A program made the translations under genes and the position numbers. Of a DNA stretch of 64,000 nucleotides, positions 10,310-34,930 are shown piece after piece (position 1 is the stretch's first letter; each line of letters opens with the position of its first letter). The notes below the pieces were generated by a model. That model had not been told where the DNA came from, did not search any database, and was given only the letters and a program-made list of their open reading frames with translations. The DNA lies in the NCBI RefSeq assembly GCF_025452235.1, contig NZ_CP104965.1:1116001-1180000 (forward strand), read 5' to 3'. Source of the stretch: Devosia neptuniae (GTDB lineage: Bacteria > Pseudomonadota > Alphaproteobacteria > Rhizobiales > Devosiaceae).

Positions 10310-12052
10310 TTAGTCAGGAGTTTGCCATTGCAGCGCCCGGCGGGCCTGCGCCTCGTAGCGGACGATGAGCGGCTTGATACGGCGCTGCTCATCTTCGCCG
10401 TTGCGGGCAAGCGCCATGGTCCATAGACCGATCTGGAATGCCAGATAGCATAGTCGATTGGCGGCGAGGAATTCTGCGCTGAGCGGGCGGCCGATGCGGG
10501 CGGCGAGGGCATCTGCCAGTGCCGCGCATTGCGCTGCCGATAGATCCAGCTCCACCCCGGCGGCGGCGAGGTCCCAGGCGATATCCTGGCAGCCGAGGAG
10601 GTCGTGGCTGGCGTGGTGGTCGAGCCCATCGAGCTTGGACCAGCCGTCCGGGCCGTGCACCCATTCCCAAGCATGCAGGCGATTGTCGGTTTGGCAGGGC
10701 ACGGGGGCGAAACGGCCGGGATCGCCAAGGGCGGTGCGAACGGCATCGGCGGCGGCCTCACCCCAGTGCTCCCCGAAATTATGGATCGCCATGGAGAACA
10801 GCGTGGGCAGACTGGCGCCGGGGCTGTCTGCTGGCCGGCCGGCCCGGAATGCCAGATAGTCCAACACGCGGTCCATGGACGGCACCGACGTCGTGGGCTG
10901 CGCTTCCAGCCAAGGGGTGATCAGAAAGCCATGACATAGTCCTGCCGGCGCCGGGGCGAAACCGGCCTGGGCCAGTTCGTCCGCCAGCTTTAGTTTGGCC
11001 TGCCCGCTGGAGCCGACCCCGACGAATTTTGCCAGCCAGCGCCGGCCATTAGCCATTGCCAGGAATTTGCGTTTTTCCATAGCCGGATCGGCCGGCGGCC
11101 AGAGTTCCAGCGGTTCGGCGCGCAAAGTCCGCCATGTCCCTCCGGACAGATCCCGCAACGGCGCCTGCAATGGACCTACGATGGTGGCGAGCCAGTTTTC
11201 CAGTCGGTGCTCGGGGTGGGGAGCATTGAAGACCAGTTGATCGAACGAAACGTAGTGTTTGCGCGCCCGGGCCCAGCGCTGCCGGTGTTCATCACGGGCC
11301 GCAGAGCCAAGCGCACCATCATGGCTGGGGAAAAAATGGATGCGCTGTTCGGCAATGCCATGTTCGACCAGCCAGTCGGCGACACCATTGAAGGAGCTGC
11401 CGGACAGGCCGGGGCCCTCATCGACGATTGCGTAATCGCCCCTGCCCGCCAGGAGCCGTTTGGCCAGGCTTGGCCGAATGGCGAGGTGGCGATCGAAGGG
11501 ATGGCCGGTGGGCCGGACGCTAAAAATTTCACGCGCACCAAGCGTCGCCGCCACCATAGCCGCCAGCCCTACCCCTATGCTGCGAATGCCGATGACGGTG
11601 GTGTCCGGACGCAATCCAGATTGCCGCGCCGCCGCACTAAAGGCCTCCGGGTAGAGTGCATAGAAGGCATAGCCTTCGGCCTGTTTGGTGCGGATCGTAC
11701 CGGCGCCGGACAGCAGGTCCAACGCGGTGCCGTCTGGCAGCGAATGCATATTGGTGAAGCCACTATCCCACGATTCCAGCACCATCTGCGCCAGACCGAG
11801 AAGCAGCGCGGCGCCTATCTGCCGAGATTGACTGATCTCGTCGGCAGCTAGGGCGGCGAATTCGGCGTCGGCCATGCCCTGCACCAGTTCGCTGGCACGA
11901 ATGAAAGCCGCAACCAAGGCCTGATGCCGTTCCAGCCCGGCCGGCATGGCCGCATAGGCTGCAAGCCGAGCGCGAATGTCGGCAACCAGCGCTCCGGCGT
12001 TCTCGCTCCGCTCGCTATCGCCATAAACCAACATGGATTCCGTCCCGCTCAA
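10310..12052 (-). CDS. Phosphoribosyltransferase-like / kinase-like fusion protein
   Basis: A 580-residue protein that I read as two joined domains. Residues about 100-270 resemble a type I phosphoribosyltransferase: [19 protein letters not shown], then [20 protein letters not shown] at the place of the PRPP loop, with [10 protein letters not shown] replacing the usual acidic DDxxxTGxT. Residues about 330-570 resemble an aminoglycoside-phosphotransferase/choline-kinase fold, with RRWLAKFVG (possible ATP Lys), LHAWEWV and [19 protein letters not shown] at the catalytic end; the canonical HGD is not obvious. It is divergent from the inositol-phosphate synthase gene with only 69 bases between starts, which suggests a shared regulatory region and a linked pathway. 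Activity is unknown. Confidence 0.6.
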
Positions 12053-12121
12053 TGTGTGCGCAGGAACAAAGCTTGGCAGGTGCCGTTGGCCTCATCAGCA
12101 AGGTTTGAGCGGAGCATGGCA

Positions 12122-13225
12122 ATGACAGGACGGAAAGTGCGCATCGGGGTGGTCGGCGTGGGAAACTGCGCATCTTCGCTGGTTCAAGGCCTGACCTATT
12201 ACCGTGATGCCGACGGCAATGAACCCGTGCCCGGGTTGATGCATGTTAATCTGGGCGGCTATCATGTTTCCGACATTGAAGTTGTCGCCGCTTTCGATAT
12301 TGCCAGCACCAAGGTCGGCCGCGACGTGGCCGAGGCGATCTATGCCGCGCCCAACAATACCAAACGCTTCGCCGATGTGCCGCCCACCGGGGTGATCGTG
12401 CAGCGCGGCAATACGCTTGATGGCATCGGCAAGTACCTCAAAGACGAAATCACGGAGGCCGATGCGCCAGTAGCCGATGTGGCAGCCGAATTGCGCGATG
12501 CGGAAGTGGATGTGCTGGTTTCCTACCTGCCCGTCGGCTCGGAAATGGCTAGCCAGTTTTACGCCGAAGAGGCGCTCAAGGCCGGTTGCGGCTTCGTCAA
12601 TTGCATCCCCGCCTTCATCGCCTCCAAGCCGGAATGGGAGCAGCGCTTTGCTGCCGCCGGCCTGCCGATCGTGGGCGACGACATCAAGAGCCAGGTGGGT
12701 GCCACCATCATCCACCGCATGCTGGCCAATCTGTTCCGCGACCGTGGCGTGCGGCTCGACCACACCTACCAACTCAATTTCGGCGGCAATACCGACTTCC
12801 TCAACATGCTGGAGCGCGAGCGGCTGCAATCCAAGAAGATCAGCAAGACCCAGGCGGTCACCAGCCAATTCGATGTGCCGCTGCCGGCCGATGATGTGCA
12901 TGTTGGCCCCAGCGATCATGTGCCGTGGCTGACCGACCGCAAATGGGCCTATATCCGGCTCGAGGGCACGACCTTCGGCGGCGTGCCGCTCAATGCCGAG
13001 CTCAAGCTCGAGGTCTGGGATTCGCCCAATTCGGCCGGCGTGGTGATCGATGCGGTGCGCTGTGCCAAGCTGGCGCTGGACCGTGGCATTGGCGGCGCGC
13101 TGGTCGGGCCCTCGAGCTATTTCATGAAATCGCCGCCCCGCCAGTTTACCGATGACGAGGCCCGCCGGCGCACCGAGGATTTCATTGCCGGGGCGGACGA
13201 ACCCTTGCTCGGAGCCGCCGAGTGA
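12122..13225 (+). CDS. ino1: Inositol-3-phosphate synthase
   Basis: A 367-residue myo-inositol-phosphate synthase of the short prokaryotic type, which converts glucose 6-phosphate to 1L-myo-inositol 1(3)-phosphate with NAD. The N-terminal dinucleotide fold is [18 protein letters not shown]. The family core [10 protein letters not shown] and the catalytic region [20 protein letters not shown] with [12 protein letters not shown] are intact, as is the [16 protein letters not shown] end. ATG 12122 is chosen because GGAG lies 7 bases upstream; ATG 12116 is an alternative. The stop overlaps the next gene (GTGA). It is the only visible source of inositol in the locus. The gene symbol is by homology. 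Confidence 0.93.
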
Positions 13226-13821
13226 CCAGCACGATCTATCTGCTGCGTCACGCCGCCCATGACCAGGTGGCCAATTATCTGGCCGGCCGCGCACCGGGTG
13301 TGCAGCTCGGGCCCGACGGATTGGCGCAGGCCGAGCGGTTGGGTACGCGGCTGGCGCGGGAGCCCTTCGACGCGCTCTTTGCCAGCCCGCGCGAGCGCGC
13401 CCAGCAGACCGCTGCCGCCGTGGCAGCAGCGCGGGGCAATTTGCCAATCGAGACGGTGGAAGCGCTGGACGAGGTTAATTTCGGCTCCTGGTCGGGCTGC
13501 ACCTTTACCGAACTGGGCAAGCGCGAAGACTGGCGCCGCTGGAACGCCTTGCGCAGCATGGCCGAGACGCCAGCCGGGGAAACCATGCTGGATGTGCAGC
13601 GCCGCGCCATCGGTTTTATCCGGCACATCACCACCCGCCCCGGCGATGCCCGCTTGGCGCTGGTGAGCCATGCCGACGTGATCCGCGCCATTGTCGGCCA
13701 CGTACTTGGCCTGCCCATCGATGCCTGGCAGCGCTTCGATATTGCGCCCGCCTCGATCACCACACTGGCGATCGGCGAATGGGGCGCCAAGCTTTTGACG
13801 CTCAACGAAATCACCCCGTGA
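13222..13821 (+). CDS. Histidine phosphatase family protein
   Basis: A 199-residue phosphatase of the phosphoglycerate-mutase-like superfamily. The nucleophile is in [10 protein letters not shown], the second phosphate-binding Arg in [14 protein letters not shown] and the second catalytic His in [15 protein letters not shown]. The GTG start overlaps the stop of the inositol-phosphate synthase gene. This tight coupling suggests that it removes phosphate from the inositol phosphate made by the preceding enzyme, or from a sugar phosphate later in the pathway. That role is inferred; no inositol monophosphatase-family gene is present in the operon. Confidence 0.88.
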
Positions 13822-13838
13822 TCCCGAAAGGCAATTCC

Positions 13839-14597
13839 ATGACACTGTCCGCTGCCGAAATACGCCAGCAGGTCGAGGCGCTTGGCCCATGGTTCCACAA
13901 TATCGAGCTGGGTGGTGTGCGCACCGCCCCCGAGCATTTCCTGGGCGATTACCCCAACATGAAGTGGCAGAAATTCGCCCATGCCATTCCGGCTGACCTG
14001 AGCGGCAAGAGCGTGCTCGATATCGGCTGCAATGCCGGGTTCTATTCGATCGAAATGAAAAAGCGCGGTGCCGAAAGGGTGCTGGGCGTGGACTTTGACG
14101 ATGTCTATCTGGAGCAGGCGCGCTTTGCCGCCCAGGTGGCCGAAGCTGACATCGAATTCCGCAAGCTGTCGGTCTACGATGTCGGGGCGCTGGGCGAAAA
14201 ATTCGACGTCGTGATCTTCATGGGCGTGCTGTATCACCTGCGCCATCCGCTACTGGCGCTGGACCTGATCCGCGAGCATGTCGCGGGTGACCTGCTGGTG
14301 TTCCAGTCCATGCAACGCGGCAGTTCCGAGATCTTGCCGCTGGCGGAAAACTATCCGTTTTCGGATGCGGCGCTGTTCGACGAGCCGGGCTTTCCCAAGC
14401 TGCATTTCATCGAAAACCGCTATGCCGACGATCCCACCAATTGGTTTGTGCCCAACGCGGCCTGCGCCGAAGCCATGCTGCGCAGTGCCGGTTTCGAGAT
14501 CACCGCGCATCCCGAAGCCGAGGTCTATATCTGCCGCACGACGGAGCGGCCGGCCCAGGCGTTTCCAATTTATCCAAGCCAGGGAGGCCGGGCATGA
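13839..14597 (+). CDS. SAM-dependent methyltransferase (CmoB-like)
   Basis: A 252-residue methyltransferase. The SAM-binding motif is SVLDIGCNAGFYSIEM (residues about 62-78), with VDFDDVYLEQAR for motif II and VIFMGVLYHLRHP for motif IV, an order typical of the CmoB-like/Methyltransf group. ATG 13839 is preceded by AAAGG; the open frame further up has no support. The start lies 17 bases after the phosphatase stop, and its stop overlaps the glycosidase-like gene (ATGA). Probably methylates a sugar, cyclitol or lipid-linked precursor made by this locus rather than tRNA, judging from context alone. Confidence 0.85.
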   Translation: MTLSAAEIRQQVEALGPWFHNIELGGVRTAPEHFLGDYPNMKWQKFAHAIPADLSGKSVLDIGCNAGFYSIEMKKRGAERVLGVDFDDVYLEQARFAAQVAEADIEFRKLSVYDVGALGEKFDVVIFMGVLYHLRHPLLALDLIREHVAGDLLVFQSMQRGSSEILPLAENYPFSDAALFDEPGFPKLHFIENRYADDPTNWFVPNAACAEAMLRSAGFEITAHPEAEVYICRTTERPAQAFPIYPSQGGRA

Positions 14598-15529
14598 TCG
14601 AAGCGGCAATGATCTGGAACGAGCCCAACAACAAATCGCATTGGGACCCTGAAATCGACCCGGACTGGATGCGCTTCGGCCAGATGGTCAACCTGGCCGC
14701 CGAGGCGATTGCCGAGGCCAATCCGGGCGTGACGCGCGTGCTGGGCGGCATTTCCCCGATCGATCCCGGCTTTATGACCCGGATGAAGAGTTATGGCGTG
14801 CTGGACCGCGTCAATGCGGTGGCGGTGCATGGCTTTCCGCTCGACTGGAATTTGTGGCAGATTCACGATTGGCCGCAAAAGCTGGAGGAAATCCGCGGCG
14901 TGACCGATTTACCGATCTGGGTGAGCGAGGTGGGTGTCTCCACTTTCGGCGCCGAGGAGGTGCAAGTGTGGGGGCTCAGGCGCACGGCCGAATTGCTCAG
15001 AGGCAATGCCGCCCGCATCCAGTGGTACAGCCTTTACGACCTGCCGCGCGAATGGGAGGCGACCACCCGCCATCGCGAGGCCGAGGGCTCCTCCTATTAC
15101 CGGCACTTCTACATGGGGCTGTTGCGCGAGGACGGCACGCCCAAGCCGGCGCTGGAGGAATTTGCCAGGCACGTACCGGAAATGGGCCTCGTGCAATGGT
15201 TTCACTACCAGGATCATCGGCTCGACGATGCGGTGGCCTGGATGAAGCGGTTGGGCGTGACGCATCTGCGCACGGGCCTGTCTTGGGCCGACAGTTTCCG
15301 GCCGGACGCGCTGGATTGGTTCGACCGGCAAATGCAGGCGCTCGAAGACTTCGACGTCACGGTGACATTCTGCTTCACGCCGGAACATCGCGGCGTCGCC
15401 CCGCACCATACCAGCGCGCCGCAAGTGCCCGAGGAATTTGCGGCTTTCTGCGCGCAGATGATCGAGCGCTATGCCCCGGCAACGGCCGTTCGGACATCCC
15501 CGCCGGTCGAGACGGGACTGCGGCTCTAG
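14594..15529 (+). CDS. Clan GH-A glycosidase-like protein with permuted barrel halves
   Basis: A 311-residue protein related to clan GH-A glycosidases such as GH39 beta-xylosidases. The acid/base motif WNEPN is at residues 8-12 (Glu10), directly at the N-terminus, and the nucleophile-like Glu112 is in PIWVSEVGVSTFG. The pieces that normally precede WNEPN appear at the C-terminus: GVTHLRTGLSW (221-231), DVTVTFCFTPEH (254-265) and the helix EFAAFCAQMIERYA (281-294). The start is firm: GGGAGG is 6 bases upstream of ATG 14594, which overlaps the methyltransferase stop. It may trim or transfer a glycosyl residue, possibly xylose given the UDP-xylose synthase in the locus. A chimera of two truncated barrels is the alternative explanation. 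The stop overlaps the convergent FrhB-like gene by 4 bases. Confidence 0.7.
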   Translation: MIEAAMIWNEPNNKSHWDPEIDPDWMRFGQMVNLAAEAIAEANPGVTRVLGGISPIDPGFMTRMKSYGVLDRVNAVAVHGFPLDWNLWQIHDWPQKLEEIRGVTDLPIWVSEVGVSTFGAEEVQVWGLRRTAELLRGNAARIQWYSLYDLPREWEATTRHREAEGSSYYRHFYMGLLREDGTPKPALEEFARHVPEMGLVQWFHYQDHRLDDAVAWMKRLGVTHLRTGLSWADSFRPDALDWFDRQMQALEDFDVTVTFCFTPEHRGVAPHHTSAPQVPEEFAAFCAQMIERYAPATAVRTSPPVETGLRL

Positions 15530-16899
15530 TCGTTGCGGGTGGTCAGCCGCAACCAGCGCGCCACGGCGCCCATTCTGCCCCGGCCATAGGCGAGGCCGTG
15601 ATAGAGGCGCAAGGCGGCGCGAGCCCAGCTCAGGTAAATCACGGGCGCATGCTGCCAGCGCGCCAGCCGAAACATGGAATGGCTCCAAGCGCTGATGGCG
15701 TAGCGCAGCCGGTAGATCAGCTTGCGGCGGAAGGGAAGAGCGTTGCTTGGCGCCACACGTCTGCGCGGCCTTCGGCCTCGGCGGCGCCAGGTCAGGCGAT
15801 AGGCCAGACCTTCGCGGCGCTGGCGCAGGCCGGCCGCCTGCGTGGCGGCGACATAGTCCGCATCAACCCGGCTCAGCTCCAGCCTGCCTTGGGCAATGCC
15901 GGCTTGCACGATGTCGTGCAGTTCGGGCGTGCGAACTACGACCACATTGGTGCCGCGCCAATCCGATGAATAGGGCTCCACCCAGGCATCGCCGAAAGAG
16001 ATATCGGCGGTTTCCGCCATGACATCGTCGCACCAATTGCAGGCGGAGTTCTGGAAGAAGCCGGCGCCCCAATCGCCGTCGGCAAGGTTAAACCAATCCT
16101 GCTGTCGCACTTCGCCATCCCTCAGGGTCAGTTGCGCCGTATACCAATTGGCGGGCCGCTCCGGCCCCTTGAGCCGGAATTCGGGCCGGGCCACCGCTTC
16201 GGACACGGTGTGCATCTGCCAGGCAAAGCTCTCCACCAGCCTTGCGCTCTTCATGTGGCCGCAGAACAGGCCCAACGTATAGGCGATGCGCTCGCGCAGG
16301 ACCGCATCTTCCGCCCGCAGCAGATGGACCGCCTTGATGAAGCAGGGAATGCCGACAATGGCATAGCGCCCCGGCACGGTCCGGATTTCAGCAAGAATGC
16401 CCGAGAGCTCGACGGGGTAGTAGCGGGATTTGGCCCCGGCAAGGATATCGTCGGCGGTGCGGGATATCGCATAGCGGAAATGTGGGCCGTCCGTGGCGGG
16501 TCGCACATGCGCCACGCCGTCGATCAGGCCGCGCCGCAGCAATTCGGCGGCGACCCAGCTGACCATGCCGCCCGAACTGCCGTGTTGACGGTAACCGCCC
16601 TCCGCCACCGCGCCAACATAGGCGGCGGTGAAATGGCCGAGGCGAGCATCGACTTGCGGGGTGGCGGCAAAACGCCGGGAAGCCAACTCATCCTCATTGG
16701 ACGCAGCAGGCGAAAAGGGGCAAATCCGGCCGAATGCCGCGCTGCGATCCCGTGTGCCGGGCCCAGCGGGCTTGAACTGGCCATAGGCGTCCAGCGTCAT
16801 GTGAGCGTTCGATCCCGCCGCACAGGCGCCGCAGCCGATGCACATGCCAGACGCGATAATCTGGCGCGGACTGATCGCGATTTCAGGCGAGGACGGCAT
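15526..16899 (-). CDS. FrhB/FdhB-like iron-sulfur oxidoreductase subunit
   Basis: A 457-residue protein of the coenzyme F420 hydrogenase/dehydrogenase beta-subunit family. An N-terminal CIGCGAC with a later CPF resembles a single 4Fe-4S site, followed by the family core GSSGGMVSWVAAELLRRGL, SRYYPVELS and VGIPCFIKAVHLL, then CNWCDDVMAETADISFGDAW. The C-terminal 110 residues are basic and extra. Outside archaea, members of this family occur beside pyruvyl transferases in polysaccharide loci and their reaction is not known; F420 itself need not be involved. It overlaps the pyruvyl-transferase-like gene by 17 bases and is the last gene of the six-gene minus operon. Confidence 0.85.
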   Translation of the reverse strand: MPSSPEIAISPRQIIASGMCIGCGACAAGSNAHMTLDAYGQFKPAGPGTRDRSAAFGRICPFSPAASNEDELASRRFAATPQVDARLGHFTAAYVGAVAEGGYRQHGSSGGMVSWVAAELLRRGLIDGVAHVRPATDGPHFRYAISRTADDILAGAKSRYYPVELSGILAEIRTVPGRYAIVGIPCFIKAVHLLRAEDAVLRERIAYTLGLFCGHMKSARLVESFAWQMHTVSEAVARPEFRLKGPERPANWYTAQLTLRDGEVRQQDWFNLADGDWGAGFFQNSACNWCDDVMAETADISFGDAWVEPYSSDWRGTNVVVVRTPELHDIVQAGIAQGRLELSRVDADYVAATQAAGLRQRREGLAYRLTWRRRGRRPRRRVAPSNALPFRRKLIYRLRYAISAWSHSMFRLARWQHAPVIYLSWARAALRLYHGLAYGRGRMGAVARWLRLTTRND

Positions 16900-17932
16900 C
16901 TAGATAGGCCTCCGACTCGGCCCGCAGCGAGGCAATGCGGCGCGCGATAAGCGGATCGAGAGGCTGCGTCAGGATATGGTCATAGCGACACTCATCGGCG
17001 CTTTCCGACACCATATGCGCCTCGGCCCCCAAAGCCGCGACGAGATCGCGCACCTTGTTGAAACGATAGTCCGAGGGCGCGGTGGCAAAGGGCTTGCCGT
17101 TGATCACCGCGAAGACGCAGCCGTGGAAAAAGTTGGTGATGACCGCCGCAGCACCGGCCATCAGGGCAGCGAATTCAAGCGGGCCGGCATCGATGCGCTG
17201 CATGTCGGCCCAGGGATTGTCATAGCCCACGCTGAGCAGCTGCAGATCGCGCCGCTGCGCCCAGCCCGTCACCGCCCGTATCAGCCAATCCGGAAAACCA
17301 TGACCATAGACGAGCGCATAGGGCCGCGCGTCCACAGCCGCCTTCGGCACGAGATGGGCGAACTGCAGAACGGGATCGAGCACGAGGGGCGGCCGCATGC
17401 CGAGCGCGGTTTCGACAATGTCCTGCGAATTGCGGTCCCGCACCGATATCGCGTCGAACCGGCTCAATTGCGCGGACCAGTATGGGTCCAACGCGCCCGA
17501 CTGACTGCCAAAACTTGCCGCATAGGCGGCGAGCCGGCCGGCCCTGAGGCCTTCGCCATAGAACAGCGCCTTGCCCCCATACCAGGGGTGGCTGAGATTC
17601 CACACTTCGTCGCTACCCACCAGCACCAGATCGTATGGCTCGCTCTGTTCCGGCCCCTGCAACGGAAAAGGCGGCGACAGCGGCAGCGCCTCGAACGCGG
17701 CAAAGAACTTCCGGGTTTTGGCCCGATAGCGGGCGTCCCGCGGCGCCTCGGGAACGGGCCGCAGGGCGCAGCGCCATTCGGCCAGGTTGATGCGGCTCGA
17801 CTGGTGATCGAGCAGCACTGCGTCATGGCCGCGTTCGCGCAGGCCTTCAACGAGACATCTTGCCTGCCAATAGGAGCCGTAATTGATGCAGCGGTGAAAA
17901 GTCAGCACGCCGATGCGCTGGGGCGGGGTCAT
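16883..17932 (-). CDS. Polysaccharide pyruvyl transferase family protein
   Basis: A 349-residue protein of the CsaB/WcaK-type pyruvyl transferase family, which adds ketal pyruvate from phosphoenolpyruvate to sugar hydroxyls. Family features: N-terminal RIGVLTFHRCINYGSYWQA, LVLVGSDEVWN, YAASFG near residue 137, ISVRDRNSQDI, and the C-terminal FFHGCVFAVINGKPF. The N-terminal NYGS motif and the paired FrhB-like gene downstream are typical of this subgroup. Five bases separate it from the oxidoreductase gene upstream. Pyruvylation would give the product a negative charge. Confidence 0.87.
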   Translation of the reverse strand: MTPPQRIGVLTFHRCINYGSYWQARCLVEGLRERGHDAVLLDHQSSRINLAEWRCALRPVPEAPRDARYRAKTRKFFAAFEALPLSPPFPLQGPEQSEPYDLVLVGSDEVWNLSHPWYGGKALFYGEGLRAGRLAAYAASFGSQSGALDPYWSAQLSRFDAISVRDRNSQDIVETALGMRPPLVLDPVLQFAHLVPKAAVDARPYALVYGHGFPDWLIRAVTGWAQRRDLQLLSVGYDNPWADMQRIDAGPLEFAALMAGAAAVITNFFHGCVFAVINGKPFATAPSDYRFNKVRDLVAALGAEAHMVSESADECRYDHILTQPLDPLIARRIASLRAESEAYLDAVLA

Positions 17933-21587: not shown

Positions 21588-21991
21588 AGGTATCGCCTTC
21601 GATCCAGTCTGTGACAAACGCCTGGAGCAGCAATTCACCACGCGAAAGCTTTGTTCCTTGGCGCGGCGGGCAGGAACACTGGCTGATCGGACAAGCAGAG
21701 GCAGCGATTTTGCCATGGGGCCACACAGCAAGGGACTCCATGGCCGGCGGAGGTGGTTTGCGCCCTGAGCGGGGAGCAGGGTGCGGTTTAACTCAGGATA
21801 AAACCCCGCCCGCTGCGGCTTTGCGCCTGCCGATTGCCGGCAAACAGCCATGAGAAGGGGCGGGCAACGGATTCACTGCGCTTTGCGGCGATTGCTGGCG
21901 CCGGGGCCGGGCTGCAGCGCCGGGCCGAGCCGGAACCCTGCTCCCGCACGCAAGCTTACTACCGCAGCTACTTACCTTTGCAGTGGGCATC
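21588..21991. other. Divergent intergenic region between the two sugar operons
   Basis: 404 bases separate the minus-strand ugd start and the plus-strand epimerase start. It must hold both promoters. No clear sigma-70 boxes, terminator or named operator is visible, and there is no convincing gene. The segment at 21770-21800 is locally A-rich (AACTCAGGATAAAA) and could be part of a promoter. Confidence 0.5.
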
Positions 21992-23098
21992 ATGAAACAG
22001 ATTTTGATCACCGGCGGCTGCGGTTTTATCGGGCGCCATGTCACAGAAGAATTGCGCGAACGGGGCTATGGCGTTCGCATTCTCGATAGCCTGATTGACC
22101 AGGTACACAGCGATGCCGCCGCCGCAGCGCCCGAGGGTGTCGACCTCATCCGCGCCGATGTCCGGGACAAGGCGGCGCTGGTCGAGGCGCTGGAGGGCAT
22201 TGATGGCGTGATCCATCTGGCGGCCGAAGTCGGGGTCGGCCAATCCATGTACGAGATCGCCCGCTATGTCGGGGGCAATGATCTGGGCACTGCCGTCCTG
22301 CTCGAAGCCATGATCGACATGCCTGTGCGTCGCATCGTGGTTGCCTCCTCGATGAGCGTTTACGGCGAGGGGCTCTATCACACCAGCGCCGGCGACAGCA
22401 TCGACTCCGTGCGGCGGCGCAGCGTCGATATCAAGGCGGGCCGCTGGGATCCGGTGGGGCCCGATGGATCTGGGCTGGTTCCCGCGCCTACCGACGAGCA
22501 AAAGTCGGTCGATCTCGCCTCCATCTACGCGCTTACCAAATATGCGCAGGAGCGCGCGGTGCTGATCTTCGGGGAGGCCTATGGCGTGGACGCCGTAGCG
22601 CTGCGCCTGTTCAACGTCTTCGGCCCCGGCCAGGCGCTCTCCAATCCCTATACCGGCGTGCTGGCCAATTTCGCCTCCCGGCTGATCAACGGCCAGCGGC
22701 CGATGATCTTCGAGGACGGCAGGCAAAGGCGAGATTTCGTGCATGTCCGCGACGTGGCCCGCGCCTTCCGGCTGGCGCTGGAACAACGCGAGGCGGCCGG
22801 GCATGTCATCAATATCGGCAGCGGCAATGCCTATGCCATTGCCGACGTGGCCACCATGCTGGCCCGCGCCATGGGCGTACCCCAGCTCGAGCCCGACATC
22901 ATGGGCAAGGCGCGATCTGGCGATATCCGCAACTGCTTTGCCGACATTTCCAAGGCGCGCGACCTGTTGGGGTTCGAGCCGCGCTTCCGCCTCGAAGACT
23001 GCCTGGACGAGCTGGCCGATTGGGTGCGACAGGCGCAGGCAGTGGATCGCGGTGCGGAGATGAAGCGGCAACTCGAAGAGCGAGGCCTGGTTTCATGA
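21992..23098 (+). CDS. NAD-dependent epimerase/dehydratase (GDP/UDP-sugar type)
   Basis: A 368-residue extended short-chain dehydrogenase. The NAD motif is ILITGGCGFIGRHVTEELRE, the catalytic triad Ser in VVASSMSVYGEG and YxxxK in YALTKYAQE, and LRLFNVFGPGQ is the usual substrate-side motif. An insertion around residues 130-170 distinguishes it from plain UDP-glucose 4-epimerase, so the sugar is uncertain. ATG 21992 is used; a GTG 9 bases upstream is possible and neither has a strong ribosome site. The stop overlaps the start of the next epimerase (ATGA). Confidence 0.88.
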   Translation: MKQILITGGCGFIGRHVTEELRERGYGVRILDSLIDQVHSDAAAAAPEGVDLIRADVRDKAALVEALEGIDGVIHLAAEVGVGQSMYEIARYVGGNDLGTAVLLEAMIDMPVRRIVVASSMSVYGEGLYHTSAGDSIDSVRRRSVDIKAGRWDPVGPDGSGLVPAPTDEQKSVDLASIYALTKYAQERAVLIFGEAYGVDAVALRLFNVFGPGQALSNPYTGVLANFASRLINGQRPMIFEDGRQRRDFVHVRDVARAFRLALEQREAAGHVINIGSGNAYAIADVATMLARAMGVPQLEPDIMGKARSGDIRNCFADISKARDLLGFEPRFRLEDCLDELADWVRQAQAVDRGAEMKRQLEERGLVS

Positions 23099-24168
23099 CC
23101 AAAGCAACACCAACAAAATTCGACGGTCCGATCGTCATCACCGGCGGCGCGGGCTTTATCGGCAGCAATTTGGCCGATGCGCTGCTCAGCGATGGCGACG
23201 CGGTGACGGTGCTCGACAATTTGAGCCGTGCCGGGGTCAGCGAGAACCTGGATTGGTTGCGCCGCCGGCACGGCGATCGCGTGCAGGTGGCCATTGCCGA
23301 TATCCGCGATCCAGCGGCCATCGATCCAGTGCTTGCCGGTGCCAGCGCGGTTTTTCATCTGGCAGCGCAGACTGCCGTGACCACCAGCCTGCACGACCCG
23401 ATTGAGGATTTCGACGTCAATGCGCGGGGCACGCTCAATGTACTCGAAGCGGTTCGCAAGGCCGGAAGGCACGCGCCGGTGATCTTTTCGAGCACCAACA
23501 AGGTCTATGGCGGGTTGGACGATCTGCGCCTGTTCGAGCTGGATGGGCGGCATGCTCCGGCCGACGAATTGATCCGCGTGCGCGGCATCAATGAGGACCG
23601 GCGCCTCGAGCTGTGCACGCCCTATGGCTGCTCCAAGGGCGTCGCCGACCAATATGTGCTCGATTACCAGCGCTCCTACGGCATTCCCACCGCGGTGCTA
23701 AGGATGAGCTGCATCTATGGGCCGCGCCAGTTCGGCACCGAGGACCAGGGCTGGGTGGCGCATTTTCTCATCCGCGCGCTGCGGGGCGAACCGATCACCA
23801 TTTACGGCGACGGCAAGCAGGTGCGCGATATCCTGCATGTCAGCGACGCGGTGGCCGCCTATCGCGCGGTGTTGGCCAGCATCGCCAAGGTGCATGGCCG
23901 CGCCTTCAACCTGGGCGGCGGTCCGCGCAATGCGGTCAGCCTCAATATGGTGCTGGCCGAAATCCAGCAGCTTACCGGCACGCCGCTGACGCTGCACCAC
24001 GAGGCCTGGCGCGAGGGCGACCAGCTTTATTTCGTGGCTGAAACCAGCCGGCTAAAGGCCGAACTGGGCTGGCGGCAGCGCATCGGCTGGCGCGATGGGC
24101 TGCGCGATCTCGCCGCTTGGCTCGGCCACCGCGAAGGGCGCCCGACGGCGCAACAGGTGCGGGCATGA
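23095..24168 (+). CDS. NAD-dependent epimerase, CDP-paratose 2-epimerase-like
   Basis: A 357-residue extended short-chain dehydrogenase. GGAGFIGSNLADALL binds NAD; FSSTNKVYGGLDDLR and CTPYGCSKGVADQYVLDY hold the catalytic Thr/Tyr/Lys; LRMSCIYGPRQFGTEDQGW is characteristic of the CDP-paratose/tyvelose 2-epimerase subgroup. Whether the true substrate is a CDP-, GDP- or UDP-sugar cannot be told. Start and stop overlap both neighbours by 4 bases, so it is fully coupled in the operon. Confidence 0.87.
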   Translation: MTKATPTKFDGPIVITGGAGFIGSNLADALLSDGDAVTVLDNLSRAGVSENLDWLRRRHGDRVQVAIADIRDPAAIDPVLAGASAVFHLAAQTAVTTSLHDPIEDFDVNARGTLNVLEAVRKAGRHAPVIFSSTNKVYGGLDDLRLFELDGRHAPADELIRVRGINEDRRLELCTPYGCSKGVADQYVLDYQRSYGIPTAVLRMSCIYGPRQFGTEDQGWVAHFLIRALRGEPITIYGDGKQVRDILHVSDAVAAYRAVLASIAKVHGRAFNLGGGPRNAVSLNMVLAEIQQLTGTPLTLHHEAWREGDQLYFVAETSRLKAELGWRQRIGWRDGLRDLAAWLGHREGRPTAQQVRA

Positions 24169-25283
24169 GCGCGGCCCTGTCTCCCGCCGTATCGGCGACG
24201 CCGCCGCATATCCTGATGACCCTCGATGCCGTTGGCGGCGTGTGGCGCTATGCGATGGACCTTGCCGCAGGCATGGTGCGGCACGGTTTTACCTTCACCT
24301 TTGCCGGCCTGGGCCCCGCGCCCACGCCAGCCCAGCGCGCCGAAGCGGAGCGGATCGGTCAATTGATCTGGCTCGACGCGCCGCTCGATTGGCTGGCCGA
24401 GACGGAGGCTCAGCTCGACCGCATCCCGGACGTGCTGGCCGCCCTGGTCGAGCAGCAGCGCATCGATCTCGTTCATCTCAACCTGCCCTCGCAAGCCTGT
24501 GGGCTGGCGCTGCCGGTACCCACAATCGTCGTGTCGCATTCCTGCGTCGTCACCTGGTTTGCGGCCGTGCGGCAAGTCCCCCTGCCCGCCGATTGGCAAT
24601 GGCAATTGCGCCGCAATCGGGCCGGCTTTGACGCCGCCGATATGGTGCTGGCGCCCAGCCAGGCCCATGCCGACCTATTGAGCCTGAGCTATGGCCCGAT
24701 CGAGAACCTGTCCGTCGTCCACAATGCTTCGCGCGCGAGCATTGCGCCCACCCGCAAGCACGCAAAGATCTTTGCCGCCGGCCGCTGGTGGGACGAGGGC
24801 AAGAATGGCGCATTGCTCGACAAGGCGGCGCGCTGCTCGGTATGGCCGGTCGCCATGGCGGGCGCCTGCGCCGGTCCCAATGGCCAACAATTCCATCCCC
24901 GCAATGCGCGTAGTTTGGGCGAGTTGCCCCATGCGGCGGTAGCGCAAGCCATGGCCGAGGCGGCGATCGTTGCCTCGCCATCGCGCTACGAACCCTTCGG
25001 GCTGGCGGCGCTTGAAGGCGCCAAGGCTGGTGCGGCGCTGGTCCTTGCCGATATTCCGACCTATCGCGAATTGTGGGACGGGGCGGCGCTGTTTGCCGCG
25101 CCGGATGATGCCGCAGGCTTTGCCCATGCACTCAATCGGCTGGCGGGCGACGATGCGCTGCGGCACGAATTTGCGGCGCTGGCTCGCCAGCGATCAGCCC
25201 GTTTCGCCCCCGAGGCGCAATGCGCCGCCATGCGCGCGGTCTATGGGCGCCTGTTGCAATCACCCTCGGCATTGGAGGCGTGA
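24165..25283 (+). CDS. Glycosyltransferase family 4 protein
   Basis: A 372-residue GT-B glycosyltransferase with a short N-terminal Rossmann domain (VGGVWRYAMDLAAGM binds acceptor side) and a C-terminal donor domain with SPSRYEPFGLAALEGAKAGA, the EX7E motif of family GT4. DMVLAPSQAHAD is the usual linker motif. It is coupled to the epimerase upstream by ATGA and is 2 bases from the CgeB-like gene downstream. It probably retains configuration and uses an NDP-sugar made by this locus, cytoplasmic or membrane-peripheral. Confidence 0.87.
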   Translation: MSAALSPAVSATPPHILMTLDAVGGVWRYAMDLAAGMVRHGFTFTFAGLGPAPTPAQRAEAERIGQLIWLDAPLDWLAETEAQLDRIPDVLAALVEQQRIDLVHLNLPSQACGLALPVPTIVVSHSCVVTWFAAVRQVPLPADWQWQLRRNRAGFDAADMVLAPSQAHADLLSLSYGPIENLSVVHNASRASIAPTRKHAKIFAAGRWWDEGKNGALLDKAARCSVWPVAMAGACAGPNGQQFHPRNARSLGELPHAAVAQAMAEAAIVASPSRYEPFGLAALEGAKAGAALVLADIPTYRELWDGAALFAAPDDAAGFAHALNRLAGDDALRHEFAALARQRSARFAPEAQCAAMRAVYGRLLQSPSALEA

Positions 25284-25285
25284 AT

Positions 25286-26416
25286 ATGCATTTCGTGTTC
25301 TATACCCATTCGCTGGTCTCGGACTGGAACCATGGCAATGCCCATTTCCTGCGCGGCGTCATGCGCGACCTGTTGCGGCGCGGCCATTCGGCCATTGCCC
25401 TCGAGCCGGCGGATGCGTGGAGCCGACAGAACCTGGTCGAAAGCCAGGGGCGCCAGGCCGTGGAGCGGTTCGCCGCAGACTTTCCGGGCCTGCAATCGCA
25501 ACAATATGGCGCGGACTTCGACCATGCCGCCGTGATCGGCGACGCCGATGTGGTCATCGTCCACGAATGGACCGATCCGGCGCTGGTGGCCCGCCTGGGA
25601 CAGATCCGCCGTAACGGCGCCCGCTTCACCCTGCTGTTCCACGATACCCATCACCGAGCCGTCTCGGCCCGGCAGGACATAGCGGGCCTGATGCTGCAAG
25701 ATTACGATGGCGTGCTGGCCTTCGGGGAAACGCTGCGGCAGCGCTATCGCGAGGCCGGCTGGGGCCGCCAGGTGTTTACCTGGCACGAGGCGGCGGATGA
25801 TGCGCTGTTCCATCCCCTCCCCGATATCGAGCGGACCAAAGACCTGATCTGGATCGGCAATTGGGGCGATGGCGAGCGCAGTGCCGAGATCGATGAATTC
25901 CTGATCCGGCCGGCGGCGGCGCTTGGCCTGTCCGGTACGGTGCGCGGCGTGCGTTATCCCGACCATGCCCTGGCGGCCGTGCGGAAGGCGGGCCTCAACT
26001 ATGGCGGCTGGATCGCCAATGCCGATGTGCCGCCGGCCTTTGCGCGGCACAGGGTGACCCTCCATATCCCGCGCCGGCCCTATGTGGAATCGCTGCCTGG
26101 CATTCCCACCATCAGGGTATTCGAGGCGCTGGCCGCCGGCATTCCCCTGCTCTCGGCGCCCTGGGACGATGCCGAGGGCCTGTTCCGTCCGGGCCAGGAC
26201 TTCCTCTTCGCCAGAACCGGGTGGCAGATGCAGGACCTGCTGCGAGAGGTCATTTCCGACCCCAGCCTGGGCCGTCAACTCGCCGCCAATGGGCTCGAAA
26301 CCATTCGTGCCCGCCATACCTGCCGGCACCGCGTCGATCAATTGCTGGCCATTCTCACCCGGACCGGCAGTGCCCGCACCGTCAGCAAGGCCGGCGCCCT
26401 GGAGACCATGTCATGA
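25286..26416 (+). CDS. CgeB-like glycosyltransferase 1
   Basis: A 376-residue GT-B protein of the CgeB/DUF3880-like group. N-terminus MHFVFYTHSLVSDWNHGNAH carries the WNxGNA-type motif shared with the next two genes; the C-terminal part has IPTIRVFEALAAGIPLLSAPW, the donor-side loop. GGAGG lies 8 bases before ATG 25286. The three CgeB-like genes in a row are related but clearly distinct, so each probably adds a different sugar. Stop overlaps the next start (ATGA). Confidence 0.84.
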   Translation: MHFVFYTHSLVSDWNHGNAHFLRGVMRDLLRRGHSAIALEPADAWSRQNLVESQGRQAVERFAADFPGLQSQQYGADFDHAAVIGDADVVIVHEWTDPALVARLGQIRRNGARFTLLFHDTHHRAVSARQDIAGLMLQDYDGVLAFGETLRQRYREAGWGRQVFTWHEAADDALFHPLPDIERTKDLIWIGNWGDGERSAEIDEFLIRPAAALGLSGTVRGVRYPDHALAAVRKAGLNYGGWIANADVPPAFARHRVTLHIPRRPYVESLPGIPTIRVFEALAAGIPLLSAPWDDAEGLFRPGQDFLFARTGWQMQDLLREVISDPSLGRQLAANGLETIRARHTCRHRVDQLLAILTRTGSARTVSKAGALETMS

Positions 26417-27504
26417 AAATCGCATTCTATGGATCGAGCCTTCTTTCGGCCTATTGGAACGGCGCTGCCACCTATTATCGTGGCATGCTGCGGGCACTGG
26501 CCGAGAAGGGTTACGACATCACCTTCTACGAGCCCGATGTCTATGAACGGCAGCAGAACCGCGATATCGAGCCGCCCGATTGGTGCCGCGTCGTGGTCTA
26601 CCAAGGTAATGTCGAGGCCCTGATGCAGGTGACCGCCGAAGCGCGGCAGGCCGATATCGTCATCAAGGCCAGCGGCGTCGGCTTCGAGGATGACCTGTTG
26701 CTCGAACTGGTGCTGCAGCACGCCGCGCCGGACGCGCTACGCATTTTCTGGGACGTGGACGCGCCGGCCACCCTGGCCGAATTGCGCAGCGATCCCAACC
26801 ATCCCCTGCGCCAGGCGCTGCAATCGATCGACCTGGTGCTCACCTATGGCGGCGGCGAGCCGGTGATTGCCGCCTATCGCGAAATGGGGGCACAGGATTG
26901 CGTGCCGATCTACAATGGTCTCGATCCACACACCCATCACCCCGTCGCGGCTGATCCGCGCTTTGCCGGCGATCTGGGATTTCTGGGCAATCGCCTGCCC
27001 GATCGCGAAGCGCGGGTGGAGGAATTCTTCCTTATCCCCGCGGTGCGCATGCCCTCGCAGCGCTTCCTGCTGGGCGGATCGGGCTGGGCCGACAAGGCCA
27101 TGCCCACCAATATCACCTATCTCGGCCATGTCGGCACGGCCGAGCACAATGCCTTCAACGTCTCGCCCAAGGCGGTGCTCAACATTTCGCGCGCCAGCAT
27201 GGCCGAAACGGGTTTTTCTCCGGCCACCAGGGTGTTCGAGGCAGCCGGGGCCGGGGCCTGCATCATCACCGATTATTGGGAGGGGATCGAATTGTTCCTC
27301 TCGCCCGATGACGAGATCCTGGTGGCGCGCGACGGGCAGGATGTCAGCGCGATCCTGGGCGAACTCACGCCAGAGCGGGCCCGCCAGATCGGCGCAGCGG
27401 CCATGGAGCGGGTGCTGCGCGAACACACCTACGCCCATCGTGCCGAGGAGGTGGACCGCGTGTTCCGCTCGGCCGCGCGCCGGCAGGTGGAGGCGGCCGA
27501 ATGA
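26413..27504 (+). CDS. CgeB-like glycosyltransferase 2
   Basis: A 363-residue glycosyltransferase beginning MKIAFYGSSLLSAYWNGAAT. It shares the N-terminal YWNGAATYYRGML block and the C-terminal FSPATRVFEAAGAGACIITD block with its two CgeB-like neighbours. DLGFLGNRLPDRE and FLLGGSGW mark the nucleotide-binding half. ATG 26413 overlaps the upstream stop; an ATG five bases earlier is in another frame. Acceptor and donor unknown. Confidence 0.84.
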   Translation: MKIAFYGSSLLSAYWNGAATYYRGMLRALAEKGYDITFYEPDVYERQQNRDIEPPDWCRVVVYQGNVEALMQVTAEARQADIVIKASGVGFEDDLLLELVLQHAAPDALRIFWDVDAPATLAELRSDPNHPLRQALQSIDLVLTYGGGEPVIAAYREMGAQDCVPIYNGLDPHTHHPVAADPRFAGDLGFLGNRLPDREARVEEFFLIPAVRMPSQRFLLGGSGWADKAMPTNITYLGHVGTAEHNAFNVSPKAVLNISRASMAETGFSPATRVFEAAGAGACIITDYWEGIELFLSPDDEILVARDGQDVSAILGELTPERARQIGAAAMERVLREHTYAHRAEEVDRVFRSAARRQVEAAE

Positions 27505-28583
27505 GTGCGCGCTATGACATCGTCATTATCGGGCTGTCGCTGTCCTCGTCCTGGGGCAATGGGCATGCCACCACCTATCGCGCCTTGATACGTGGGCTGC
27601 GCGCCCATGGCAAAAGCGTGCTGTTCGTCGAACGCGACGTGCCTTGGTACGCCAATAATCGCGACCTGCCCGACCCCGATTTCTGCGACCTGGCCTATTA
27701 TGACAGCGTCCAGGACTTGCTGGCGCGCTACACGCCACAGCTGAAAAATGCGGGCGCGGTCATTGTGGGTTCCTATGTACCCGAGGGCATTGCGGTGATC
27801 GACGCTCTGAACAAGATGGCGCTGACCAATTGGCATTTCTACGACATCGACACGCCAGTGACGCTGGCCAGGCTTGCCCGCGGCGAGGAGGAATATCTGG
27901 CCACCCGGCAGATTCCGCTATTCACCAGCTATATGTCGTTTTCCGGCGGGCCGACGCTGGATCGGCTCGAACAGCAATTCGGCGCCCGCTCGGCGCAGGC
28001 GCTCTATTGCTCGGTGGATGCAGATCGCTATGGGCCGACGGGGGAACCCCAGCACTGGGACCTGGGCTATCTGGGCACCTATAGCCCTGATCGCCAGCCG
28101 GTACTCGAGCGGCTGCTGATCGAGCCGGCAAGGCAATTGCCCGACAGGCGTTTCGTGGTGGCCGGGGCGCAGTTTCCGCCTGATATCGAATGGCCCGCCA
28201 ATGTAGAGCGCATCGAGCACGTGCCGCCATCCGAGCACTCTTCGTTCTATAACCGGCAGCGTTTCACGCTCAATGTCACCCGCGCCGACATGGTCGCCGC
28301 CGGCTGGTCGCCCAGTGTCCGCCTGTTCGAGGCCGGCGCCTGCGGCACCCCCGTGATCAGCGATATCTGGCCCGGCCTCGATCACTTGTTTCCTGCCGAG
28401 ACCATTGTCCTCGCCAGCGACAGCGCCGATGTGGTTCGCGCCCTGCGCCAGACCACCGCGTCCCAGCGCCAAGCCATGGCCACCGCCGCGCGTCGCCACG
28501 TGCTGGCGCGGCACAGCGCCACCGCCCGCGCCGGCGAATTGCTCGCCATGCTCGGCGCGAGCGCTATCCGTTCATCCGCCTGA
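27501..28583 (+). CDS. CgeB-like glycosyltransferase 3
   Basis: A 360-residue GT-B glycosyltransferase: SSSWGNGHATTYRALIRGL at the N-terminus, DLGYLGTYSPDRQ in the centre and WSPSVRLFEAGACGTPVISD near the C-terminus, matching the two genes before it. ATG overlaps the upstream stop (ATGA). Twelve bases separate its stop from the UDP-xylose synthase gene, so a UDP-xylose or UDP-glucuronate donor is possible for at least one of the three. Confidence 0.84.
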   Translation: MSARYDIVIIGLSLSSSWGNGHATTYRALIRGLRAHGKSVLFVERDVPWYANNRDLPDPDFCDLAYYDSVQDLLARYTPQLKNAGAVIVGSYVPEGIAVIDALNKMALTNWHFYDIDTPVTLARLARGEEEYLATRQIPLFTSYMSFSGGPTLDRLEQQFGARSAQALYCSVDADRYGPTGEPQHWDLGYLGTYSPDRQPVLERLLIEPARQLPDRRFVVAGAQFPPDIEWPANVERIEHVPPSEHSSFYNRQRFTLNVTRADMVAAGWSPSVRLFEAGACGTPVISDIWPGLDHLFPAETIVLASDSADVVRALRQTTASQRQAMATAARRHVLARHSATARAGELLAMLGASAIRSSA

Positions 28584-28595
28584 AAGGCTCGTCCG

Positions 28596-29609
28596 ATGCA
28601 CATTTCCAAACCCAATATGACCATTCTGGTCGCCGGCGGCGCCGGCTTTGTCGGCTCCCATCTCTGCGATGCCCTGCTGGCGCAAGGTCATCGCGTCATC
28701 TGCGTCGACAATTTCCAGACCGGCTCGATTGCCAATGTGCAGCCGCTGCACAATCATCCGGGCTTCCGGCTGATCGAGGCCGATATCTGCGATCCGTTCG
28801 TTGCCGACGAGCCGATCGACCAGGTCTATAACCTGGCCTGCCCGGCCTCGCCGCCGCAATATCAGGCCGATCCGATGCATACGATGATGACCAGCGTGGT
28901 GGGCACGGGCAATCTGCTGCGCCTGGCCGAGCGGCATGGCGCCGGCTTCCTGCAGGCTTCGACCAGCGAGGTCTATGGCGATCCCGAGGAGCATCCCCAG
29001 CGCGAGGATTATTGGGGCCATGTCAATTGCACCGGTCCACGCGCCTGCTATGACGAAGGCAAGCGCGCCGCCGAAACGCTGTGCTTCGACATGCTGCGCG
29101 CCGGCCGCGTCGATGCCCGCGTGGTGCGGATCTTCAATACCTATGGGCCGCGCATGAGCCCCAATGATGGGCGGATCGTCTCCAACCTGATCGTGCAGGC
29201 GGTGCGCGGGCAACCGCTGACCATTTATGGCTCGGGCGAGCAGACCCGTTCCTTCTGCTATGTCAGCGACTTGGTGGCTGGCCTGATCGCTTTGATGAAT
29301 GTCGACCCCAATCCGGGCCTTCCCGTGAACATCGGCAATCCGGGCGAATTCACCATTAGCGAGCTGGCCGAGCTGGTCCTCGAGATGACCGGCAGCAGGT
29401 CCAAAATCGTGCATCGCCCCCTCCCCGAGGACGATCCGCAGCGCCGCCGTCCCGATATCGAGCGGGCCAGGCAAGTGCTGGGCTGGGAGCCGCGGCTGCC
29501 GCTCACCGAAGGCCTTGCCTTGACCATTCCCTGGTTTGCCGAACGGCTGCGGGAAACACCGCCCGCGCGGCGCGGCACGAGACAGTCCGTCGCTGCGGCG
29601 CCATGGTGA
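28596..29609 (+). CDS. uxs: UDP-glucuronate decarboxylase (UDP-xylose synthase)
   Basis: A 337-residue extended short-chain dehydrogenase that decarboxylates UDP-glucuronate to UDP-xylose. Recognised by the family signature [15 protein letters not shown], followed by [21 protein letters not shown] and [13 protein letters not shown], which is distinctive for this enzyme. NAD motif is [17 protein letters not shown]. Together with UDP-glucose dehydrogenase in the divergent operon it completes a route from UDP-glucose to UDP-xylose. Gene symbol by homology. Confidence 0.92.
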
Positions 29610-29616
29610 GGCTGCG

Positions 29617-30132
29617 ATGGCCGATGACATTCCCGAGCCGGTGGCGCGCAATATAGCATCGATCCGGCAATGGCAGGCCGAGCGGCAGGCCAAGCGCGGT
29701 ACCAGCGACAAGATTGCCGATGCGATTAGCCGATTTGCCGGCAGCATGCCCTTTGTCTACCTGCATCTGGTGATTTTCGGGTGCTGGGTGATTGCCAATC
29801 TGGGCTGGGTTCCGGGCGTGCCGCGCTGGGACCCTACGCTGGTGGTGCTGGCCATGGTTGCCTCGGTCGAAGCGATCTTTCTGACCAGCTTCGTGCTGAT
29901 CAACCAGAACCAGATGACACTGGAAGCCGACGAAAAAGCTGAATTGGATCTGCAGGTTGGCCTGTTGAACGAGGGCGAAACCACACGGCTGCTCGCCATC
30001 ACCCAGGCCATCGCCGAACATCTGGGCGTCACCAGCGGGGTCGAGCATGAGCTGGACGAATTGCGCAAGGAAACTCAGCCTGGCGTCATTCTGGACGCGG
30101 TCAAGCATGGCTCCGGCAAACCTGATGCGTGA
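29617..30132 (+). CDS. DUF1003 membrane protein
   Basis: A 171-residue protein with two membrane segments around residues 45-95 (FVYLHLVIFGCWVIANLGW and LAMVASVEAIFLTSFVLI), then NQNQMTLEADEKAELDLQ, the DUF1003 signature, and an acidic helical tail. ATG 29617 has GAGG upstream. The gene follows uxs by 7 bases but DUF1003 proteins are not sugar enzymes, so co-transcription may be incidental. Function unknown. Confidence 0.85.
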   Translation: MADDIPEPVARNIASIRQWQAERQAKRGTSDKIADAISRFAGSMPFVYLHLVIFGCWVIANLGWVPGVPRWDPTLVVLAMVASVEAIFLTSFVLINQNQMTLEADEKAELDLQVGLLNEGETTRLLAITQAIAEHLGVTSGVEHELDELRKETQPGVILDAVKHGSGKPDA

Positions 30133-33841: not shown

Positions 33842-34642
33842 TCAGCGCCGCTCATTGCGCAGGCGATTTTCCAGCAGGCGGACCAGCAGGGACAGGGAAA
33901 TGGTCATGGTGAGATAGAGGAAGGCCACGACGTTGTAGGTCTCGAAGAACAGGAAGGTGCTGGAGGAATAGACTTTGCCCAATTGGGTAATGTCCTGCAC
34001 GCCCAAAGCCGAGACCAGGGCCGAATCCTTGACCATGGAGACGAAGTCATTGCCCAGCGGGGGCAGGATGGTGCGCAGGGCCTGCGGGGCGATGATGAAG
34101 CGGAAGCAATGCCAGCGCGAGAGGCCCAGCGCGCGCGCCGCTTCGACCTGGCCGGAATTGACCGCTTCGATGCCGGCCCGGAAGATTTCGGCGATGAAGG
34201 CGGAATAGCAGATGGTGAGCGCGACGATGGCGCGCCAGGCGAAATCGAACTGGCGGATGGTGATCGTGCCACCTGTCGGCTGCAGCAGCCAATTGATGGC
34301 AGCGACCATACCGGGCGCGCCGACAAAGGCGACGTAGAACAGAAAGACCAGCACGGGAATGCCGCGAATAATCTCGACATAGAAGGTGGCCAGTTCGCGC
34401 AGCACGCGATTGGTCGAGGTGCGGGCGAGCGCGATCAGCAAGCCCAGCATAGTAGCCGCGGTGAAGGCGACGCCAGTGACCCAGAGCGTGGTGGTGATGC
34501 CGCCCGAGAGCGCACGGAAGATGACGGCATAGCCGGCATTGGCCGTCATGGCCCATAGGCCAAGCACGAAAAGCAAGGCAATGGCGAGCAGCCACCAGGG
34601 CGTGCGGGCGAGGATGGAGGGGCGGCGGGGGATGTAGGTCAT
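33842..34642 (-). CDS. Amino-acid ABC transporter permease (HisM/GlnP type)
   Basis: A 266-residue inner-membrane permease with about five to six membrane segments. The EAA loop that contacts the ATPase is [20 protein letters not shown], and [16 protein letters not shown] is the usual polar-amino-acid permease motif. The N-terminal [17 protein letters not shown] is cytoplasmic. It lies downstream of the periplasmic binding protein gene on the same strand, with 288 bases of repeats between them. No second permease or ATPase gene is present here, so it must share them with another locus or act as a homodimer. Confidence 0.9.
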
Positions 34643-34729
34643 GGTGTCTTCATGGTGGCAGCCGCAGACTCAGGGCTGCACCGGGGAGAGTATCTAGATT
34701 TGGCGCCTGTGACTCACCCCCACCCTTGA

Positions 34730-34904
34730 TCCCTCCCCACAAGGGGGAGGGAGACGATAGAGCCGAGAGTGCAGTTCCTGCGCCTCCCTCCCCTTGATGG
34801 GGAGGGAATGCGGGTGGTCGGGGAGCCACGATGTGGGGCAGAGCTGCGGAGCAAGGCCCCCTCATCCGGCGCGGTGCGCCGACCTCTCCCCCCAAGGGAG
34901 AGGT
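34730..34904. repeat. CT/GA-rich inverted repeat cluster
   Basis: Between the binding-protein and permease genes are three inverted boxes: CTCCCCACAAGGGGGAGGGA (34732 on), CCTCCCTCCCCTTGATGGGG (about 34782 on) and ACCTCTCCCCCCAAGGGAGA (about 34881 on). Each can fold back. The same family lies at 62364-62485 and 63793-63944. Confidence 0.75.
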
Positions 34905-34930
34905 GAAGGAAGGCGGGGTTGCCACGCCGC

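Follow-up and report, generated by a model that had tools for sequence, protein, structure and literature searches.

A probable natural circular permutant of a PslG-like barrel glycosidase encoded in Devosia neptuniae

How can a (beta/alpha)8 barrel glycosidase be built from a chain that starts at its acid/base strand? This question is raised by a gene at positions 14594 to 15529 of a 64,000-nucleotide stretch of Devosia neptuniae DNA (contig NZ_CP104965.1, positions 1,116,001 to 1,180,000 of the forward strand; hereafter the window). The initial annotation, made from the sequence alone, proposed a circular permutation that joins the natural ends and cuts the barrel open immediately ahead of the acid/base strand. 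Both parts of this proposal are supported by matches to the Pseudomonas aeruginosa glycosidase PslG, a rotation scan, hhalign, the order of homologues and the predicted barrel. The gene product is most likely a naturally permuted retaining glycosidase of clan GH-A, probably active and probably located in the cytosol, with PslG (GH39) as the nearest solved structure, and fills the place of a canonical-order domain found in related gene clusters.

A barrel with swapped chain order

The gene and its two parts are as follows.

14594..15529, + strand: circularly permuted PslG/GH39-like (beta/alpha)8 glycosidase, 311 amino acids (translation, rotation scan, predicted model)
14594..15175, + strand: canonical second part, strands beta4-beta8 with helices, residues 1-194 (hhalign; model elements E4-9 to H185-191)
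15176..15484, + strand: canonical first part, beta1-alpha3, residues 195-297 (upstream matches in canonical relatives; model elements E198-200 to H279-293)

Translation places W8-N9-E10-P11-N12, S111-E112-V113-G114, HLRTGLSW (224-231), TVTFCFTPE (256-264) and EFAAFCAQMIERYA (281-294) at the positions named in the initial annotation. For the rotation scan, the 299-residue core was rotated in 5-residue steps and scored against a profile of canonical relatives. The unrotated glycosidase reached 150 bits over canonical positions 110-294; a cut at residue 190 (positions 2-289) or at 195 (positions 4-292) lifted the score to 242 bits. A homologue with 66% identity rose from 146 to 239 bits in the same scan, while a canonical control scored 483-485 bits at rotations 0-15 and dropped to 234. 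The swapped order of the glycosidase is far beyond chance. With hhalign, residues 3-193 of the A3 alignment, which was built from a chosen subset of rows, fell on canonical profile columns 115-303 with probability 100. In the genomes of canonical relatives, the C-terminal part of the query matches directly upstream of the N-terminal part within one open frame, an order seen in G315 and G265 and then in 6/6 and 7/7 canonical genomes.

Among solved structures, PslG (PDB 4zn2, 5bx9, 9g17) is the closest in sequence. A phmmer search of PDB placed query residues 3-190 on its chain residues 132-325 (E 0.024), and a profile of 46 permuted homologues matched it at E 6e-5 overall. One paper (PMC9075953) assigns PslG to a cluster for polysaccharide synthesis, and in being a glycosidase of such a cluster it resembles the window enzyme; PslG is longer and has the canonical order, whereas the window enzyme is permuted and has 311 residues.

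Several results weigh against the permuted PslG-like reading. The second phmmer stretch, query residues 209-295 on chain residues 34-130, was non-significant, and that of the homologue profile was weak, at 4.8 bits. In Pfam, only PF11790 (Glyco_hydro_cc) appeared on the glycosidase, at 13.9 bits and below its cut-off of 21. Rotation was also scored with a small profile made from five PslG-like sequences; it raised the glycosidase from 37 to 50 bits, and a homologue (L012) from 21 to about 34 bits with no clear peak at the join near residue 195. The latter test is the weaker of the two rotations, because L012 gave no clear peak and the canonical control barely matched the profile, with at most 6 bits.

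The swapped order is common to the homologues examined, and no tandem barrels, which would have pointed to two truncated pieces, occurred among the inspected rows. A scan of bacterial and archaeal genomes confirmed at least 571 relatives among 599 stretches; the best 80 loci served for the counts below, which therefore lean towards close homologues. At least 8000 database proteins match the glycosidase, the permuted order being known for the inspected rows. Many among the 120 database matches listed are named beta-xylosidase, a name that is a record label only. Matching plasmid records number 147, of which 97 are at 60% identity or more. In loci L031-L174, the open reading frames (ORFs) in canonical order comprise EPI2 fusions, one PslG-like protein (L114) and a protein of 382 amino acids (L113).

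Published cases of natural circular permutation among barrel glycosidases seem to be few. The GH70 glucansucrases (clan GH-H) are large secreted multidomain enzymes. PMC4919382 describes them as naturally permuted barrels running alpha3-beta4-...-alpha8-beta1-...-beta3. The cut lies at nearly the same place as in the window enzyme, with alpha3 first in GH70 and last here; clan and catalytic residues differ, and GH70 was considered as an analogue only. A Pfam scan of the glycosidase at E 10 returned no GH13 or GH70 model. Two further papers concern a domain permutation in MalS (PMC10223318) and a permuted CE4 domain in PgaB (PMC13366581). No permuted clan GH-A enzyme was found among the titles and abstracts listed in searches of open-licence papers.

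The canonical counterpart and its probable replacement

The permuted gene lies among the following genes of the window, several of which recur around its relatives.

12116..13225, + strand: myo-inositol-1-phosphate synthase family gene, INO1 (Pfam PF01658; start read from the sequence)
13222..13821, + strand: histidine phosphatase family gene (Pfam PF00300)
13779..14597, + strand: TIGR04290 family methyltransferase (388.1 bits against TIGR04290, cut-off 300)
21983..23098, + strand: EPI1, SDR epimerase/dehydratase of the same cluster (similarity scans, conserved neighbour)
23095..24168, + strand: EPI2, SDR epimerase/dehydratase, unfused in the window (57-66% identical to the SDR regions of two fused proteins)
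24117..28583, + strand: four glycosyltransferase genes, GT4a, GTb, GTc and GTd (Pfam matches; conserved neighbours)
28596..29609, + strand: SDR, UDP-glucuronate decarboxylase (UXS)-like (Pfam Epimerase; counterpart gene so annotated in other loci)

The same kind of cluster occurs in Rhizobium etli p42b, R. phaseoli and the genomes G265 and G315, where a canonical-order domain is fused to EPI2. The SDR parts of two such fusions are 57% (L013) and 66% (L014) identical to the window EPI2. The fused domains (R. etli p42b RHE_RS22270; L013, L014, L115) are the closest canonical-order relatives found, with 28-39% identity by segment, and share the gene cluster and the catalytic positions with the window enzyme. 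They differ from it in being unpermuted, fused to EPI2 and, in the 11 canonical-only genomes, unaccompanied by INO1 and the phosphatase, whereas the window enzyme is permuted and stands alone.

In a careful tree of 50 rows, the reordered permuted sequences form one clade (99/96) beside the canonical clade (99/99). A quick tree of 125 rows agreed, with a warning of long branches joining permuted and PslG-like rows. It comprised 28 permuted rows together with the 91 canonical candidates, out of 129, that contained WNEPN and had at least 285 residues; the careful tree took 50 of its rows, without L020, so that both trees derive from chosen subsets. Since the permuted clade lies next to the canonical clade and not inside it, a single permutation event predating the diversification of the sampled fusions is the simplest reading. 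A permuted clade nested within the alphaproteobacterial fusions was unsupported, the trees placing it separately beside the canonical rows. None of the inspected rows showed a tandem intermediate. A tblastn stretch of R. phaseoli, covering query residues 7-302 in order, was considered as a tandem-duplication intermediate and rejected: it proved to be a chance extension into the epimerase, and the order there is canonical.

Among 397 genomes of the window's order, which the Devosia names of its nearest homologues indicate to be Hyphomicrobiales, the enzyme (E 1e-5) was present in 36 and GTb (E 1e-40) in exactly those 36. The permuted form occurred in 31 of them and the canonical form in 7, with both in G1002 and G1083. 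An open frame is shared with EPI2 by 6/7 canonical copies; the assembly of the remaining genome (G1056) is fragmented, and fusion was not shown there. In 9/31 permuted genomes (some of them draft assemblies), enzyme and GTb are found on separate contigs or over 0.5 Mb from each other, and linkage alone therefore does not explain the co-occurrence. A class-wide draw of 385 genomes gave 14 with the enzyme, 8 permuted, 6 canonical and none with both. EPI2 was found in 42/42 genomes, namely the 31 permuted and the 11 canonical-only ones, the latter comprising 5 from the Hyphomicrobiales set and 6 from the class-wide draw. These profile counts come from related genomes with a shared history and are not independent.

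The permuted enzyme would take the place held by the fused canonical domain in related clusters. The alternative that survives best, itself rather unlikely, is that the permuted protein acts on a substrate of its own as the partner of an inositol module, and that the complementary distribution reflects two cluster versions with different products. The company kept by the two forms favours this alternative: INO1 (E 1e-30) was found in 31/31 permuted genomes of Hyphomicrobiales against 0/11 canonical-only genomes, and the phosphatase (E 1e-25) in 30/31 against 0/11. Moreover, both forms are intact in G1002 and G1083 (L203 and L204), and the permuted clade branches outside the canonical one. Genomes with both forms, together with the restriction of INO1 and the phosphatase to the permuted form, suggest that the jobs of the two forms may not be quite identical. 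However, both cluster versions share EPI1, EPI2, the glycosyltransferases, UXS and the methyltransferase, along with ADH and GFO in several loci. Further, G823 (L170/L202) carries a full-length permuted gene with INO1 and, in addition, an EPI2 fusion whose canonical domain is decaying: this domain no longer has the acid/base Glu motif, the HGFP His or a number of core segments, while the frame and the nucleophile motif are kept. No canonical relic near EPI2 scored above 8 bits in the 27 genomes fetched of 28 permuted-only ones, and none was found at E 1e-3 in the window's own EPI2 stretch (L167).

In an EPI2 tree, fused and unfused proteins are mixed; the unfused label requires 8 parsimony changes, of which well-supported branches force 2. 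The tree has several long branches, and 11 of its fused rows are partial. This mixture fits repeated loss of the fused domain. Related genomes with one form, the other, both, or the permuted form and a decaying canonical copy in the same kind of cluster offer a natural experiment in which the replacement of an old chain order by a new one can be followed. The two loci L203 and L204 are good material for comparing the forms.

Predicted structure and catalytic residues

Structure prediction, which the initial annotation had called for, gave a barrel of eight strands with the (beta/alpha)8 architecture. The chain would run beta4-alpha4-...-beta8-alpha8-beta1-...-beta3-alpha3, with a short linker around residue 195 connecting the old ends, the barrel opened between alpha3 and beta4, and the acid/base strand as its first element. 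The catalytic candidates are as follows.

14621..14623, + strand: Glu10, predicted acid/base, after strand beta4 (aligned with PslG Glu165; identical in 81/81 rows)
14927..14929, + strand: Glu112, predicted nucleophile, end of strand beta7 (aligned with PslG Glu276; identical in 81/81 rows)

Glu10 and Glu112 sit at the counterparts of strands beta4 and beta7 in the canonical model, the catalytic positions of GH39. The phmmer alignment set them on PslG chain residues 139 and 250, an offset of 26 from Glu165 and Glu276. His79, Tyr145, Arg226 and Trp231 are likewise invariant in 81/81 rows, and residues of this kind are characteristic of active sites in clan GH-A. Among canonical rows, the counterparts of the two Glu were retained in 35/36 and 32/36. 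According to PMC9075953, Glu165 and Glu276 are the key residues of PslG. In a double-displacement mechanism, Glu10 would serve as acid/base and Glu112 as nucleophile. The protein starts at strand beta4, leaving no room for a signal peptide as read from the sequence, and would act in the cytosol.

Loss of catalysis, leaving a permuted binding or scaffold protein of the cluster, is improbable. Model confidence is low at residues 11-15, right after the acid/base Glu, and at 157-166, so that the active-site geometry is not established, which tells in favour of such a loss; yet the two Glu and the four further residues are identical in all rows, and the decaying canonical copy does lose its acid/base Glu and core segments.

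The relation to GH39 that the initial annotation had suggested holds as to the neighbour, a PslG-like GH39 enzyme. The canonical order from beta1 to alpha8 along the chain is absent in the rotation scan and in the predicted elements, and the glycosidase was therefore filed as a permuted relative and not as a GH39 member. No NCBIfam model matched it, and none of the curated Pfam or NCBIfam models attained its cut-off on it; the canonical barrel of L013 likewise had no Pfam match at E 0.01. With the permuted model, a structural aligner gave no GH39 chain among the 50 matches listed.

Gene start, cluster and regulation

The N-terminus is firm, as had been claimed: a ribosome site, GGGAGG, precedes the ATG, which overlaps the stop of the methyltransferase gene by 4 nucleotides, and in 80/80 loci a start codon (74 ATG, 5 GTG, 1 TTG) stands at residue 1, where the match begins. 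An artefact, be it truncated tandem-barrel pieces, a wrong start codon or misassembly, is scarcely credible: the frame is open upstream, giving a 362-residue ORF from a TTG at 14441, but this stretch overlaps the methyltransferase gene, the start residue is shared by the 80 loci, loci L031-L174 hold 118 permuted-order ORFs (some genomes fetched twice), and homologues measure 296-329 amino acids in the 80 loci and 296-344 among all those read, none of tandem length.

Around the permuted gene, the 80 loci hold the phosphatase in 79, INO1 in 76, the methyltransferase in 66, GTd in 57, GTc in 51, GT4a in 50, GTb in 48, EPI2 in 41, EPI1 in 40, ADH in 34 and GFO in 33, counted in loci that end at 10 kb or at contig ends. 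The window INO1 scored 562.9 bits against TIGR03450, below the cut-off of 638. TIGR04290 was named nowhere in a search of open-licence papers. A neighbouring ORF (unk391, 28572-29747, - strand) is antisense to the UXS gene and was discounted. No link was made to bacterial UDP-apiose synthase clusters, for which the paper describing them gives no conserved operon.

The enzyme would act among sugar-nucleotide enzymes and glycosyltransferases, beside INO1, the phosphatase and the methyltransferase, in a cluster that is probably UDP-glucuronate/UDP-xylose based. The scanned cluster genes included no recognisable flippase, polymerase or exporter. The cluster probably makes a glycan or glycoside that stays inside the cell and is connected with stress, perhaps one built on inositol, and the enzyme might trim or transfer such a compound. 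A bolder picture, offered tentatively and rather doubtful as a whole, is a family-wide clan GH-A permutation from one event, carried by a mobile stress-regulated operon with INO1 and phosphatase that moved into clusters already equipped with the epimerase-fused canonical domain and repeatedly displaced it, the enzyme being an intracellular transglycosidase with an inositol acceptor and not a hydrolase.

A candidate promoter lies upstream of the operon.

12063..12087, + strand: EcfG-like promoter motif GGAAC-N16-CGTT (pattern search)

The EcfG-like motif stands 28 nucleotides before the INO1 start. The window alone has 2 matches against 1.29 expected by chance, but in homologous loci the motif is enriched ahead of INO1 and EPI1. 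Within 350 bp upstream in the 80 loci, the strict pattern was found for INO1 in 17/76, EPI1 in 15/41 and the gene at 10310 in 4/39, for none of ADH, GFO, UGD and the methyltransferase, and for the permuted gene in 0/80, against a background of about 0.009 per 350 bp. A looser pattern gave 42/76 for INO1, 27/41 for EPI1 and 11/34 for ADH against 0.031. Because the loci are related to one another, these occurrences cannot be treated as independent. The cluster may be part of the alphaproteobacterial general stress response.

Divergent from INO1, a conserved protein of 580 amino acids (10310-12052, - strand) has homologues in 38/80 loci; it showed no Pfam match and no significant NCBIfam match. 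Adjoining the permuted gene at 15526-17932 (- strand) are an FrhB/FdhB-like protein (21/80 loci) and a polysaccharide pyruvyl transferase (20/80), an odd pairing for a sugar cluster. Parts of an amino-acid type ABC transporter lie farther away, at 33842-35734.
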